Positions 3,989 through 8,790 of a stretch of 36,747 nt of DNA are shown piece by piece. Position numbers and translations under genes: made by a program. The DNA lies in the NCBI GenBank assembly GCA_947501115.1, contig CANMVX010000037.1, positions 1-36,747 of the forward strand. Reading direction: 5' to 3'. Source of the DNA: Haliscomenobacteraceae bacterium. Its GTDB lineage: Bacteria; Bacteroidota; Bacteroidia; Chitinophagales; Saprospiraceae. Positions within the stretch are counted from its first letter, which is position 1, and each line of letters begins with the position of its first letter. The notes beneath the pieces are model-generated. The model was not told the origin of the DNA. It did no database searches and saw only the letters and a program-made list of their open reading frames with translations.

Positions 3989-5683
3989 TTATTTATCTTT
4001 AGATCTGACAATTCCTATTATTTTACCCCGGTCAAATTGTCCTGTAAGCGTTGGCGATTGCCTGTTTTCTGTAAATTTTCTAACATTGTCCCCGACATAA
4101 TTAAATAATTCCTGGATACTAATTCTTTTGTCCCGATTGGTGTCAGCCAGACCCTCGAGGCCTTTAATTAAATAATAGCTAAATACACTTTGTTGGAGTC
4201 TATCGGCTTCCGCTGAATTCTCACTGGACGTTGAAGAAAGGAGCATAGCAAAATCAGATTGGTCAGACTGGCTATTTTGATAAAAATCAGTTTGACTGCT
4301 CCCCAAGAAACCCTTTTGTTCCTGCATACTTCCTGCATGACAAGCATCAGCGATACACATTTTAAATTGAGCATTAGATTGTTGAAGCGCTGAATAAATT
4401 TCATGGTGGTACACCACTTTTTCATAAGTACCATCATAATCAATAGGTAAAAATGCCCCTTTAATACCATGACCTGAAAAGTAAAATATCACCATATCCT
4501 TTTTTGTCACCCTACTTAGCATTGCATTCAAGGAATCGAGTATATTTCTACGTGTGGCTACTTTATCCACTAAATTTATAATATTCTTTGAAGGAATAGC
4601 TCCTCCCTCGGGACTTCTGAGGAAAGCAAAAAGGTTTAATGCATCATTATCAGGGTATTGAAGTGGTTCCCTATGATTTACGTAGTTTGATACACCCACT
4701 AATAAAACATAGACTTCACCCTCATAGAAAGAATAAGCCGTATTTTTAGAAACTATATTTGGGCCCACCTCCGGTACTGCAGTTTTTATAAATATTCCAC
4801 GTTCCCAAATTCCCTGAACTTTATTTCCATTCGCAAAAATCATCATACCCTTTCCATGCAATAAGCCCTTTTCTATTTCCCCCTCATACACATCTCCGTT
4901 ATAGTAAGATATTTTTCCTATTCCATTTGCGAACCCATTTTGAAAATCACCTTCATAAGTGTTACCATCTGCATACAAATAGGTACCCCTGCCGTTTTGA
5001 CAATTCCCCGATTGGCAAACTCCAATTTTTTCTTTTACGTTAGGAGTGGGAGGTCGTGGACCTCCTGTTTTTTCGATTATTACTGGATCAGAAGTACCCT
5101 GAAAAATATTTTCGGACCAAAAACCTGATCTAATTCTGCCGTCAGAATAGGTTAACGCTCCATTTCCGTGTTGTTTATCCCCTTGCCAGGCACCTTTATA
5201 CTCCGATCCATTAAAATAGTAACAAATACCTATCCCATGGCGAAGACTGTTTTTAAAATCGCCGATATAAATGTCGCCATTAGTCATCAGCACCCCTTTT
5301 CCGCCAATACAATCGCCAGATAAACAGCCTTGAATACGGCTGGAAACAGAGAACAACTTTTCTGTAACCAAATTTGGATTTTCCTCAAAAAGCTTCCCTT
5401 TTTTCCACAGGCCCTGTTGTTTTAAAGCTTGAGCATTGATAAAAACACCCACACCCTCAGGTTTGTCCAGTTTCCATTCACCAAAAAAACGAGAACCATT
5501 CTTCCAAAAACAAATTCCTATACCCTGTCTATTACCCTGAACAAATGCCCCCATATATCTGGAGCCATCCTGGAATTTTTTAACACCAAAACCATCAATA
5601 CATTTTCCCTCGACACATTGAGCATAGAGGAACAATGGGACACTAAAGAATAGGGTAATAAATAAAAACAACTTCCATTTCAT
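3989..5683 (-). CDS. Secreted MORN-repeat protein with caspase-like protease domain (larger paralogue)
   Basis: A signal peptide (residues 1-21, ending LYAQ) leads into nine MORN units in three blocks of three (about 23-100, 120-195, 223-297). Each block opens with two cysteines four residues apart (C23/C28, C120/C125, C223/C228), which could form disulfides outside the cytoplasm. A peptidase C14 (caspase/metacaspase) domain follows at about 324-560. Its expected catalytic pair is visible: H405 in YFSGHG and C448 in DACHAG. Residues 514-525 (DTNRDKRISIQE) match an EF-hand loop except for K in place of G at position 6. No T9SS sorting domain or membrane anchor is seen, so the periplasm is likely. 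The gene lies 46 bases downstream of its shorter paralogue and is probably cotranscribed. Substrate and role are unknown. Confidence 0.85.
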   Translation of the reverse strand: MKWKLFLFITLFFSVPLFLYAQCVEGKCIDGFGVKKFQDGSRYMGAFVQGNRQGIGICFWKNGSRFFGEWKLDKPEGVGVFINAQALKQQGLWKKGKLFEENPNLVTEKLFSVSSRIQGCLSGDCIGGKGVLMTNGDIYIGDFKNSLRHGIGICYYFNGSEYKGAWQGDKQHGNGALTYSDGRIRSGFWSENIFQGTSDPVIIEKTGGPRPPTPNVKEKIGVCQSGNCQNGRGTYLYADGNTYEGDFQNGFANGIGKISYYNGDVYEGEIEKGLLHGKGMMIFANGNKVQGIWERGIFIKTAVPEVGPNIVSKNTAYSFYEGEVYVLLVGVSNYVNHREPLQYPDNDALNLFAFLRSPEGGAIPSKNIINLVDKVATRRNILDSLNAMLSRVTKKDMVIFYFSGHGIKGAFLPIDYDGTYEKVVYHHEIYSALQQSNAQFKMCIADACHAGSMQEQKGFLGSSQTDFYQNSQSDQSDFAMLLSSTSSENSAEADRLQQSVFSYYLIKGLEGLADTNRDKRISIQELFNYVGDNVRKFTENRQSPTLTGQFDRGKIIGIVRSKDK

Positions 5684-5729: not shown

Positions 5730-7001
5730 TTAGCGAACTACAGAAACAGGCATATTTTTGTCTATTCCACCATATAAAACAGGCGATTGTTTATTTTGCG
5801 TAAACCACCGCACCTGTTCGAAAACGTAATCAAATAATTCGTTAACGGAAACGAGACCATCCTTATTTTTTTCCGCTTCGCCGGTTAAACCACGAATAAG
5901 AAAATGGCTAAAAACCCCTGATTTAATGCCATCGAATTCGTGAGAAAATTCCTCTGTCCTTGATGATAAAAGAAGGCCTAAGCCGCCTGAATAACCCGCT
6001 AAAGATTCATAGAGAAGATGAGAGTAACTTTCATTTTCAGACACTGAGCGAAAACTACCTGAGTGACAAGCATCGGCAAAAACCAATTTATGTTTAGCAG
6101 GACTATGTAACAAAATAGATTTGACCTCCTCATGATTTATCCGATGCATGACACCGTCACTATCCACGGGCAGAAAAGCACCTGGCAAACCATGGCCTGA
6201 AAAATAAAATAAGATTAAATCTTCAGGATTTGCTTTTGAAAATAGCTGATTAGCGGCCATCATGACATTTTTATAAGTTGCCTGCTGATCTTTCAATAAA
6301 ATAATTTGTGACGAAGGCACGGAACCACCAGCTTCAGATTGTAAAAAGTCAAAAATATGTTGAGCGTCATCATCGCTAAATTCTAATTTTTTCATTTGAT
6401 TATAATCGGATACACCGATAATGAGCGCTCGAATTTTAGGAATTTTAATTGTTTCGACCTTTATAGAAGGAGAAGCACTTTTAGGAGCTGAAGTACTGAG
6501 CTGATTATTTTCCCACACACCAATGGTAATTTTACCATCGGGCAGGGTAAGTTTCCCTATCCCCTGTTTTTTTCCGGCCACAAAAGAACCTTCGTAAGAA
6601 GTACCATCTGGATTATTCAGAATACCAAAGCCATGCTGGGCACCCATTTGCCAACTACCCTGATAATTTCCGCCGACAAAAAATGTATATTTTCCGATGC
6701 CATGAAACTTACTGTAAACAAAACCACCTTCGTATAAATCACCATTACTATAAATCATTTTACCCACACCTTGCCTATAACTATTCACCCATTCCCCGAC
6801 ATATAAATCACCATTTGGAAAGTGCAATTTACCCTTTCCATTGGGGTTTGCGCGTTGAAAATCACCTTCATACCGACCGCCACTTGGATAAATATAAACG
6901 CCGTAACCTTCATAACAATTACCCGAGAGGCAACCAACGAAAGCACTTGAATTTGAATAAAATGAAAATAGGAGAACGACAGACAAACAAAAATTACGCA
7001 T
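5730..7001 (-). CDS. Secreted MORN-repeat protein with caspase-like protease domain (smaller paralogue)
   Basis: This 423-residue paralogue has a signal peptide (about 1-20), one C24/C29 cysteine pair, and a continuous run of six MORN units (about 30-168). The last unit ends in a GVW cap. A serine/proline-rich linker leads to a caspase-like C14 domain (about 190-420). The catalytic pair is H270 in YFSGHG and C312 in DACHSG, and IIGVSDY opens the domain as in bacterial metacaspase relatives. Residues 377-388 (EKNKDGLVSVNE) resemble an EF-hand loop with E at position 1. It precedes the larger paralogue on the same strand. No good Bacteroidota promoter is seen directly upstream. MORN units often bind lipids or proteins in other systems; here that is only a possibility. 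Confidence 0.85.
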   Translation of the reverse strand: MRNFCLSVVLLFSFYSNSSAFVGCLSGNCYEGYGVYIYPSGGRYEGDFQRANPNGKGKLHFPNGDLYVGEWVNSYRQGVGKMIYSNGDLYEGGFVYSKFHGIGKYTFFVGGNYQGSWQMGAQHGFGILNNPDGTSYEGSFVAGKKQGIGKLTLPDGKITIGVWENNQLSTSAPKSASPSIKVETIKIPKIRALIIGVSDYNQMKKLEFSDDDAQHIFDFLQSEAGGSVPSSQIILLKDQQATYKNVMMAANQLFSKANPEDLILFYFSGHGLPGAFLPVDSDGVMHRINHEEVKSILLHSPAKHKLVFADACHSGSFRSVSENESYSHLLYESLAGYSGGLGLLLSSRTEEFSHEFDGIKSGVFSHFLIRGLTGEAEKNKDGLVSVNELFDYVFEQVRWFTQNKQSPVLYGGIDKNMPVSVVR

Positions 7002-7016: not shown

Positions 7017-7193
7017 AAGTGAGCCCGACCTTTAAAAGGCTGGAAAAAGCGTAACATTTATCGTATATGAGGCTGGATATTGAAGGTTAAAAAATAAATA
7101 ACTTACATAAGAATGAAAAAATTGAATAAAAATTGCGTGTACAGGCAGCGAAAAGATACCATTCTAAGTTTTGATACTACAACTGTACTAACA

Positions 7194-7271
7194 AAGCGGA
7201 TAATCCTTCCTTTCTACACTCACTGAATCAATAAATTTATCAGGAAAGAGTTATCCGCTTATTTTTTTTTT
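7194..7271 (+). terminator. Strong plus-strand terminator without an obvious gene
   Basis: AAGCGGATAA (7194-7203) pairs perfectly with TTATCCGCTT (7251-7260), with a further CTTTC/GAAAG pairing inside, and the right arm is followed by A and ten T. This is a rightward intrinsic terminator by form, but no rightward gene is recognised between 7002 and 7193. Its T tract touches the 3' end of the leftward tRNA-like RNA. Confidence 0.6.
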
Positions 7272-7429
7272 GCTGTGAGAGAAGGATTCGAACCCCCAAG
7301 AGGCAGTTAGCCATAGCACAAGAAGATTGGTGGTCAACCCCTGGATCGATACCGGCCCTATGCTACGTTTATCCCGTAATCCTCACCCCCGAGACAAGAG
7401 GGCATGGCTGCCAATTTCATCACCTCACA
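7271..7429 (-). tRNA. Class II tRNA-like RNA with a giant variable arm (unassigned)
   Basis: On the minus strand a cloverleaf can be drawn. The acceptor stem is 7 bp (TGTGAGG at 7429-7423 with TCTCACA at 7280-7274). The D arm is ATG/CAT with loop AAATTGGCAGC, the anticodon stem CCCTC/GGGGG with loop TTGTCTC (7397-7391), and the T arm GGGGG-TTCGAAT-CCTTC. The region between the anticodon and T stems is 88 nt, closed by GAGG/CCTC, against about 10-20 nt in Leu or Ser tRNAs. Within it GTAGCATAG can pair with CTATGgCTAaC. The loop would read GUC (Asp) with U37 instead of a purine. The D loop looks Leu-like and G73 looks Ser-like. CCA is not encoded. A good promoter lies 36 bases upstream. It could be a specialised tRNA, a non-translational RNA or a decayed gene. 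Confidence 0.55.
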
Positions 7430-7464
7430 ATTTGATGATTAAACAAAACTTACTTTTGTTGATG

Positions 7465-7496
7465 CAAATATAATAATACTTTGTTTTTTATGCAAG
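7465..7496 (-). promoter_or_regulatory. Promoter of the tRNA-like RNA
   Basis: On the minus strand CTTG (7493-7496), 20 bases, then TATATTTG (7465-7472) matches the Bacteroidota consensus closely. Transcription should start near 7459, about 30 bases before the acceptor stem. No leftward protein gene starts between here and 7001, so the RNA is the likely target. Confidence 0.7.
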
Positions 7497-7542
7497 ATTT
7501 ATAAAAATAATTCCAAAAAATTATGAAATTTTTAATTTCACG

Positions 7543-8790
7543 TCAAATTAATTGCATTAAGAAAGCACAAACCAAAGCGCCATAAGTTCCCAAAGCATAG
7601 CCGAGGACAGCCAAAAGCACGCCAACAGGAGCCAGAGCTGGACTAAAAGCGGCAGCTACAATAGGTGCTGATGCGGCACCACCTATATTAGCCTGAGAAC
7701 CTACGGCCAGGAAAAAGAAAGGCGCTTTTATCCATCTTGCTACAAGAACCAACAATATACAGTGTATGCACATCCAGATAAATCCAACGGCGAAGAGGCC
7801 TAAATTTTGAAAAACCTCTTGGAGATTCATCTGCATGCCTATGGTTGCCACTAAAACATATAAAAATACGGATCCCAAACGAGAAGCACCTATTCCTTCA
7901 AAGTTTCGCAACCGTGTAAAAGAGATAAATAAGCCAATCGTTGTTGCCAGGAAGGCTATCCAAAAGAAAGAAGAATTCAGCGCGGTCAAGCGCCAGGCAA
8001 TTAGCACATCGTTATATTTTCCCAGCCATGGGGTAATGATATCCGCGCCCCAATGAGAAAGAGCGACGCCTGCAAATGCAATGGTAAGAAGATAGAGTAG
8101 TGATTTGGTATCTGGAATTTTTTCAACCCCTTTTTGGAATGCAGACATTTTATTTTGAAGATCAACTATTGCAGATGTATCGGCCTTCAACCATTTGTCT
8201 ATTTTATCAGTAATACTCGCACCATACAGGAGCAAACCCATCCATACATTGGCTACAACGACATCTACGACAATCATGACAGCGAAAAGATTTTCATTTA
8301 CTGAAAAAATTTCTTTCATGGCCGTTTGATTAGCGCCTCCCCCTATCCAGGAACCAGCAATGGTAGAAAGTCCTTTCCATAAATCTTCCGGATTTGTCTG
8401 TATTAGGTTGGGGAAAAGAAATTTAACGGTTATTAAAGCAATAGGCCCTCCGATGATAACACCCAGTGAGCCGGTTAAAAACATAATAAGTGCTTTAGGT
8501 CCTAAATTCCAAACTCCCTTTAAATCAATGCTTAAACATAGCAAAATGAGAGAGGCTGGCAATAAATACTGAGAGGACACCTTATAAAGCACGGAGTTTT
8601 CACCTGAAATAAGATTCAGCGGCCAATGCAGGATTGCTGGTAAAAAATAGCATAATAATAAGGGAGGAAAAATGGTATAAAACTTTTGAATCCATTTATT
8701 TTTACTTGAAGAGGTAAAAAAAACGAAAGAAAGTACAGACAATAATAGTCCTAATACGATGGCATCATTGGTAAAGTAAGGTTGCATCAT
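7543..8790 (-). CDS. DUF819 family membrane protein
   Basis: A 415-residue, strongly hydrophobic protein with about ten to twelve membrane segments spread over its length. It matches the DUF819 (YjcL-like) family. The glycine-rich segment GSWIGGGANQTAMKE (about 147-161) and the C-terminal segment around GSQANIGGAASAPIVAAAF are typical of these proteins and suggest a channel or carrier built from two similar halves. The transported substrate is not known for the family. Two ATG codons stand in tandem at the start, and either could be used. The gene is divergent from lspA, whose promoter overlaps the start region. Confidence 0.8.
   Translation of the reverse strand: MMQPYFTNDAIVLGLLLSVLSFVFFTSSSKNKWIQKFYTIFPPLLLCYFLPAILHWPLNLISGENSVLYKVSSQYLLPASLILLCLSIDLKGVWNLGPKALIMFLTGSLGVIIGGPIALITVKFLFPNLIQTNPEDLWKGLSTIAGSWIGGGANQTAMKEIFSVNENLFAVMIVVDVVVANVWMGLLLYGASITDKIDKWLKADTSAIVDLQNKMSAFQKGVEKIPDTKSLLYLLTIAFAGVALSHWGADIITPWLGKYNDVLIAWRLTALNSSFFWIAFLATTIGLFISFTRLRNFEGIGASRLGSVFLYVLVATIGMQMNLQEVFQNLGLFAVGFIWMCIHCILLVLVARWIKAPFFFLAVGSQANIGGAASAPIVAAAFSPALAPVGVLLAVLGYALGTYGALVCAFLMQLI

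Follow-up and report, generated by a model that had tools for sequence, protein, structure and literature searches.

A Conserved Family of tRNA-Like RNAs with a Large Variable Domain and Core Aspartate Identity Marks in Bacteroidota and Some Phages

A tRNA-Like RNA Gene in a Bacteroidota Contig

The window, by which we mean the whole stretch of DNA analyzed (36,747 nt, contig CANMVX010000037.1 of a Haliscomenobacteraceae bacterium), contains on its minus strand a gene for a tRNA-like RNA (Table 1). A reading of the sequence alone had proposed a minus-strand cloverleaf with a 7-bp acceptor stem, a Leu-like D arm, a 5-bp anticodon stem, a TTCGAAT T loop, a UUGUCUC anticodon loop (GUC, U37), G73 and an 88-nt variable region, and all of these are present. 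The outermost acceptor pairs are U1-A72, G2-C71 and U3-A70, the residues U8, G9 and G26 are found, and the acceptor/T branch is 7/5. The covariance model R1, which was built from 31 short-form members with the window copy left out, finds the RNA at 7272-7429 with 111 bits and an E-value of 1.5e-29. ARAGORN calls no tRNA in the window, no Rfam 15 family matches the RNA at its gathering score, and a relaxed-cut-off Rfam scan of positions 7150-7550 gave only three weak, unrelated matches. The minimum-energy fold of the lone window sequence is not the cloverleaf, and its stability is no better than that of shuffled sequences (z 0.40), so that folding of a single sequence leaves the structure unsettled. 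Just downstream of the RNA gene lie two adjoining minus-strand genes (3989-5683 and 5730-7001) with MORN repeats and a caspase domain. A likely terminator for plus-strand transcription that faces the RNA gene is formed by a long hairpin with a T run behind it (7196-7265).

Table 1. Features of the tRNA-like RNA gene in the window
Feature	Positions	Strand	Basis or remark
tRNA-like RNA gene, 158 nt	7272-7429	minus	U1 at 7429, C74 at 7272; R1 match, BLAST relatives
Acceptor stem, 5′ strand UGUGAGG	7423-7429	minus	all 7 pairs formed in every one of 31 members
D arm, Leu-like, 3 bp (A10-U25)	7404-7420	minus	alignment, tRNA comparison
Anticodon arm CCCUC-UUGUCUC-GGGGG	7386-7402	minus	sequence, alignment
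Anticodon GUC (34-36)	7393-7395	minus	C38 at 7391
Variable domain, 88 nt, structured	7298-7385	minus	
V stem, 5′ strand GAGG	7381-7384	minus	partner CCUC at 7300-7303
Internal loop, 5′ side GAUAAA, conserved	7368-7373	minus	faces CUAA at 7307-7310; beside covarying 3-bp helix
Conserved loop GGUUGACCA (GRUNGACCA)	7331-7339	minus	long-form members only; short stem
T arm, TTCGAAT loop, 5-bp stem	7281-7297	minus	
Acceptor 3′ strand UCUCACA, G73, C74	7272-7280	minus	
Putative Bacteroidota -7 promoter element TATATTTG	7465-7472	minus	sequence and enrichment in relatives

The RNA Belongs to a Conserved Structured Family

BLAST with the window RNA produced matches in 52 of 100 relatives, often as several neighboring copies, with 96-100% identity within the genus and about 70-85% for long matches beyond it. 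In the R1 alignment of 31 sequences, 97.0% of cells are paired, 15 of the 29 pairs are changed in both strands, and not one shuffle out of 500 was as good on any of five measures. The four cloverleaf helices are 100% paired and 7 of their 20 pairs change on both sides, among them 4 of the 7 acceptor pairs. The covariance-model search of relatives for compensating changes found covarying stems, those of the variable region included. GG is present in the D loop in all 123 rows and the T loop is of the standard TTCRA type in 117 of them, the two features by which we judged the D-T contact. Across six congeners, 0-5 of the 158 RNA positions vary, compared with 14-31 of 273 in the downstream flank (and 2-12 of 115 in the upstream flank); the RNA is less changed than its downstream flank, so selection is visible, which contradicts the decay of a dying tRNA that the sequence-only reading had allowed for.

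Of 150 genomes from the same family of bacteria, 77 have matches to R1 with E up to 1e-15, and 33 of these 77 have two or more; matches with a best E up to 1e-17 were detected in about 72 of 396 genomes of the same class. A scan of the phylum gave 30 of 296 genomes, two of them outside the class, after one doubtful 77-nt match (G153) had been dropped from 31. The DNA-pattern matches listed among named genomes lie on at least 119 contigs, of which one is unplaced and 118 are from Bacteroidota, with 52 in Chitinophagia, 25 in Saprospiria, 20 in Cytophagia and the remainder in other groups or without placement. Chitinophaga pinensis and Flammeovirga pacifica are among the carriers. The class, phylum and same-family scans used stricter filters and lose members: G037, matched by BLAST over most of the RNA, is missing from the same-family scan, and the second copy in G470 has 64.8 bits in the class scan compared with 106.9 in the locus scan. 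The R1 locus scan covered 100 of about 330 loci, with 158 matches listed and 150 aligned. Resolved members score at least 72 bits with R1 and ordinary tRNAs at most 50.7, partial matches to extra-long copies in locus L033 aside; in the genome scans, a few genuine long copies fall below that level, whereas short matches the size of a tRNA (about 77-87 nt) go up to 64.7 bits, and because of this overlap the class count was limited to a best E of at most 1e-17. Copies for comparison were gathered in part with a pattern that takes in the anticodon loop. From them we left out 36 pattern matches without a T arm, which comprised chance matches, truncations at contig ends and some phage copies whose T stem differs, as well as 9 of 251 matches; the 242 remaining rows gave 218 distinct copies after removal of identical ones. 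Because a genome can stand under two locus numbers, the numbers of loci given here should not be read as numbers of genomes.

At the level of sequence it is certain that the window RNA is a member of a conserved, structured family of tRNA-like RNAs. Full-text searches of the open journal literature listed no paper that describes it by title or start of abstract, and within that scope the family is apparently undescribed so far.

The Variable Domain Has a Common Core and a Long Form

Two forms of the variable domain are found among the 218 distinct copies, 70 without and 148 with a GRUNGACCA loop; the window copy belongs to the latter, long form. Both forms share the order V stem, short linker, 3-bp helix and internal loop. 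The V stem, the GAGG/CCTC pairing of the sequence-only reading, is backed by covariation, and all four of its pairs form in 210 of the 218 copies. The 3-bp helix has 89% of its cells paired compared with 57% in shuffles, and the internal loop beside it reads GAUAAA in 133 copies, most others being close, opposite CUAA in 198 of the 218. A short stem carries the GRUNGACCA loop, and conservation in it is good for no more than the first two pairs: the closing pair is G-C in 147 of 148 copies, the second is formed in 82% and the third in 51%. A second helix had been proposed from the window sequence, and a helix does exist, but in another register than the proposed one, which took in the CUAA of the conserved internal loop. 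The conserved upper helix of the window copy pairs C+GUAGCAU with GUGCUAU+(bulged G)+G; the upper helix of the long form, with its one bulged base, is 86-94% paired at its five best positions compared with 44-78% in shuffled sequences, and two further positions are barely above shuffles.

Promoter Element and RNA Ends

A near-consensus promoter had been noticed upstream of the gene, and its element, TATATTTG, we take by consensus to be of the Bacteroidota type. The corresponding motif TAnnTTTG is enriched in relatives: within the 70 bases upstream it occurs 76 times for 182 host copies (7.9 in shuffles) and 5 times for 34 viral copies (0.86 in shuffles). A TTTTT run lies within 60 bases downstream of 122 of 179 host copies and 4 of 34 viral copies. 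Bacterial RNase P favors A at -4, and the leaders of the host copies carry A-4 in 168 of 184 cases and A-2 in 173 of 184. The preference is weaker in 36 ordinary tRNAs (30 of the source genome and six tRNA-Asp of relatives), with A-2 in 18 and A-4 in 15. These 36 tRNA genes encode C74 and mostly no more of the CCA, so the G73-C74 of the RNA sits in the tRNA register. Read from the sequence, the RNA is the product of a free-standing gene with its own promoter-like element; it folds as a tRNA, ends at the 3′ side as tRNAs do and has a variable domain that is both structured and conserved.

Neighboring Genes and Phage Copies

Members of one protein cluster are encoded 66-351 nt upstream of the RNA, in divergent orientation, in 68 of 114 host loci, and all eight neighbor proteins tested (six of the main cluster and two counterparts from other loci) are Lrp/AsnC proteins by Pfam. 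The divergent Lrp/AsnC gene in many hosts makes control by amino-acid supply plausible; the neighborhood may also be inherited gene order. None of the neighbors tested in the window is Lrp/AsnC, and a DUF819 protein is encoded upstream on the same strand instead. No conserved partner gene stood out beside the RNA in the first 40 loci and the window, and clustering of neighbor genes revealed no recurrent one that would use an aspartyl-RNA. Separately, a member of a methyltransferase cluster is encoded downstream on the same strand in 20 of the 114 host loci (within L071-L189), with PF02390 in the two members tested; we take this methyltransferase to be TrmB, an enzyme that modifies the variable loop of tRNA.

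The core pattern was found in 71 viral contigs; in the neighbor analyses, only the core served to position those viral loci whose T arm had not been parsed. A tRNA gene lies within 1 kb of the RNA in 29 of the 71 viral loci compared with none of 154 cellular loci, and 42 viral loci have none at that distance. The phage copy is upstream of one protein cluster in 41 of the 71 loci (L190-L260), and the one member tested is a terminase large subunit; a small ORF often stands between the two, with no Pfam match in the two examples tested. In a 636-kb unannotated phage record the RNA copy is among nine ARAGORN tRNA genes in 30 kb. No copies were found in the further phage isolate and plasmid records searched. 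On a coarse tree, with the 218 rows thinned to 140 and few columns, the 18 viral copies among the 140 need three label changes, compared with 17.2 in shuffles, which points to few viral lineages and not to frequent fresh captures. Phages tend to carry translation parts, so a role in tRNA biology would fit better than a purely host-wall role.

Two further observations concern viral copies. One viral member (L250:3176-3330) has an unpaired acceptor 5′ strand with an intact 3′ strand and is possibly a decayed copy. Four viral matches of 120-150 nt and 28-43 bits (L207:9979-10112, L207:4587-4706, L254:3170-3299 and L258:5951-6100) have in common an AGTCAGG acceptor and a CTGACTAC end, and may represent another long-armed or intron-bearing tRNA-like RNA.

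The Anticodon Loop and G73 Match the Core Aspartate Identity Set

Loop positions were counted in 82 distinct members, each with a score of 72 bits or more, taken from the relatives and the model-found sets with viral pattern-picked loci left out, and chosen by score only, not by anticodon pattern or 3′ end. All 82 members have U35, C36, C38, U1-A72, G2-C71, G73 and C74, and 80 have G34. These counts carry the proviso that the BLAST query which retrieved the relatives contained this loop and that the R1 model saw the loop too. In 66 rows from loci outside the R1 model the picture of the loop is the same. The two exceptions (L303:1501-1618 and L314:1501-1611) have U34 (anticodon UUC), with positions 35, 36, 38 and 73 fixed. 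Position 37 is a pyrimidine in 77 members (76 U, 1 C) and a purine in five (4 G, 1 A), and position 10 is G in 8 and A or U in 74. U33 is found in 75 members, with G or C in the other seven. To our knowledge, U33 and a purine at 37 are near universal in decoding tRNAs, and U33 is not given up. Fixed positions 34, 35, 36 and 38 beside a free position 37 are the pattern of recognition by a synthetase, not of pairing with a codon or of continuous antisense pairing.

Bacterial aspartate identity comprises G73, G34, U35, C36 and C38, with G10 and G2-C71 as further elements, and G1-C72 is strictly conserved in bacterial tRNA-Asp, as given in the parts of PMC9976931 that treat identity. The core set (G34, U35, C36, C38, G73) is thus present in the RNA family, so that the identity marks called odd in the sequence-only reading, which had missed the aspartate signature, are not simply odd. 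The marks G1-C72 and G10 are not shared (U1-A72 in 82 of 82, G10 in 8 of 82), and these, with the two U34 members, speak against charging by aspartyl-tRNA synthetase (AspRS). No second AspRS scored over the cut-off in 21 genomes, each of which has one, so there is no dedicated synthetase. We judge that the RNA is probably, though by no great measure, matured as a tRNA and recognized by AspRS. A glutamine identity was also considered: the Gln row of the identity table has G73, U1-A72, G2-C71 and G36 (PMC9976931), the first three of which are shared, and it is ruled out by C36 in all 82 members.

tRNA-Asp Genes Coexist with the RNA

Matches to a tRNA-Asp pattern were found in the genomes of 58 of 70 relatives, a few of them clearly not tRNAs, and two phage loci, L227 and L234, have tRNA-Asp genes at a distance of about 5-6 kb from their RNA copy. 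In the source draft genome the tRNA-Asp pattern has no match, neither tRNA-Asp nor tRNA-Gln was seen among the tRNAs read (30 of 33 matches had their own loci), and six other genomes of the same genus have two tRNA-like matches each to the tRNA-Asp pattern. Replacement of a missing tRNA-Asp by the RNA was rejected, since in view of these congeners a gap in the draft is likelier.

Within the T stem, pair 51-63 is A-U in 202 of 218 copies and pair 49-65 is G-C in 211. In the non-proteinogenic cell-wall tRNA-Gly of Staphylococcus aureus, changes at the pairs 49-65 and 51-63 have removed determinants for EF-Tu, which these tRNAs thereby evade (PMC9976931). Pair 49-65 stays G-C here, and the parallel is therefore suggestive only.

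Comparison with Known RNAs

The body of the RNA resembles a class II tRNA-Leu of Bacteroidota: among the tRNAs compared, tRNA-Leu(UAG) of the source genome comes nearest to its 5′ half, it has a Leu-like D loop and the 7/5 branch, and R1 also picks a tRNA-Leu in a phage array with 50.7 bits. It differs from tRNA-Leu in having G73 instead of A73, a GUC anticodon and the 88-nt variable region. With tRNA-Asp it shares G73, G34-U35-C36, C38 and G2-C71, whereas its class II body, U1-A72, A10, U37 and giant arm set it apart. The 3′ half is closest among the tRNAs compared to tRNA-Ser(UGA) of the source genome, nearer than to the tRNA-Asp of relatives, and a serine reading is kept as a rival for this reason.

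tmRNA combines a tRNA-like acceptor and T arm with a large extra domain, as this RNA does, and some of the viral loci carry a tmRNA too. The RNA described here, however, has full D and anticodon arms, and its domains vary in length such that length alone suggests no obvious common reading frame. Identity with tmRNA was rejected because the source genome has a separate tmRNA.

We know of no large arm in the non-proteinogenic tRNA-Gly of S. aureus. They offer a model of how such an RNA might work, as tRNAs that are kept from EF-Tu and used elsewhere, albeit with an amino acid other than aspartate, in the account given in part of PMC9976931. Allo-tRNAs are Ser-type class II tRNAs with non-serine anticodons, GUC included, and in this they are similar (PMC7609411, section 7). 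They have an 8/4 or 9/3 branch, in contrast to the 7-bp acceptor and 5-bp T stem of this family, both 100% paired. That section reports them from Clostridia, Proteobacteria and Acidobacteria and describes none with a giant arm (PMC7609411).

Proposed Function and Alternatives

The sequence-only reading had suggested a specialized tRNA-like RNA, perhaps outside ordinary translation. Conservation of the family, the tRNA-type ends and a loop without decoding features fit this suggestion, which they support in part. The reading that we prefer, to which we give a probability of roughly one half, is that the RNA would be a dedicated tRNA, charged by AspRS but not used for decoding, which its arm passes on to a partner. 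RNase P and the tRNA 3′-end machinery would mature the RNA, its CCA would be completed, and AspRS would charge it with aspartate by way of G34-U35-C36-C38 and G73. The loop, with its pyrimidine 37 and dispensable U33, could together with the T stem and the bulky arm keep the RNA from ordinary decoding, and on the variable domain there might dock a protein that makes use of the aspartyl-RNA, or senses it, outside normal elongation; these two steps we propose with less assurance than the first. Phages would bring their own copy of the RNA, as they do with tRNAs and tmRNA.

Use of an amino acid need not come into it. The RNA could be structural or regulatory, for example an AspRS sponge or a decoy for tRNA-targeting nucleases, with the tRNA shape serving stability and binding. 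The presence of several copies in many genomes (two or more matches in 33 of the 77 positive ones) suggests that dosage matters, and the phage copies and the patchy presence in the class (about 72 of 396 genomes) agree with such a role. Yet G73, C74 and the tRNA 3′-end register are kept in 82 of 82 members, and the usual loop, YUGUCUC, would be a poor decoy for a nuclease that reads the CUGUCAC loop of tRNA-Asp. We consider such a role somewhat unlikely.

A serine acceptor, charged by SerRS through the long arm and G73 and delivering or misinserting serine in the manner of an allo-tRNA, would account for those two features and for the 3′ half, whose best match among the tRNAs compared is tRNA-Ser. 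Two unpaired bases after the V stem are a feature of Leu rather than Ser tRNAs, however, and are found here. Of the Ser marks, C72 is replaced by A72 in 82 of 82 members, and C11-G24 gives way to U-A in 26 and U-G in four of 31 members, with C-G in one. Allo-tRNAs with GUC do exist (PMC7609411, section 7), but the Ser set as tabulated in PMC9976931 names no anticodon bases, which leaves the fixed positions 35, 36 and 38 unexplained, and we think serine charging distinctly unlikely.

Improbable as well, in our estimate, is an additional decoding tRNA-Asp with an enlarged arm. It would explain the Asp determinants and the phage copies near tRNA genes (29 of 71 loci). Against it stand the seven members without U33 and the purine 37 in only five of 82, as well as the tRNA-Asp pattern matches, some not tRNAs, in 58 of 70 relatives and the tRNA-Asp genes in phage loci L227 and L234.

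Y RNAs of the YrlA type mimic tRNA and carry a conserved extra domain, and the RNA is like them in both respects. A Ro-binding Y RNA is nevertheless strongly disfavored and very improbable, as the TROVE (Ro-like) protein is absent from the source draft genome and from 18 of 20 carrier genomes and no Rfam match was found. TROVE was present in only two of those 20 (G265 and G412). A dying tRNA, or one interrupted by an intron in the variable loop, is in our estimate extremely improbable: the non-cloverleaf minimum-energy fold and the broken acceptor 5′ strand of viral L250 would suit it, but constraint in congeners, covariation and the spread over orders contradict decay, and, as to an intron, the insert has a structure of its own and sits between the strands of a conserved stem.

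Significance

With the preferred reading of a charged, non-decoding tRNA, a broader proposal can be put forward, tentatively and as less than an even chance: that a large part of the Bacteroidota and some phages might maintain a separate pool of aspartyl-RNA, in which a Leu-like body has been redirected to AspRS, taken out of decoding and equipped with a large protein-binding arm, for nonribosomal transfer of aspartate or for aspartate sensing. A structured RNA of tRNA descent in many Bacteroidota and some phages seems to have been overlooked; ARAGORN and Rfam 15 both skip it. Its conserved arm is a direct handle with which to fish out the partner. If the RNA is charged and non-decoding, it would open an aminoacyl-tRNA pathway without a known end point, and it would mean that tRNA identity and decoding can separate in a natural gene.
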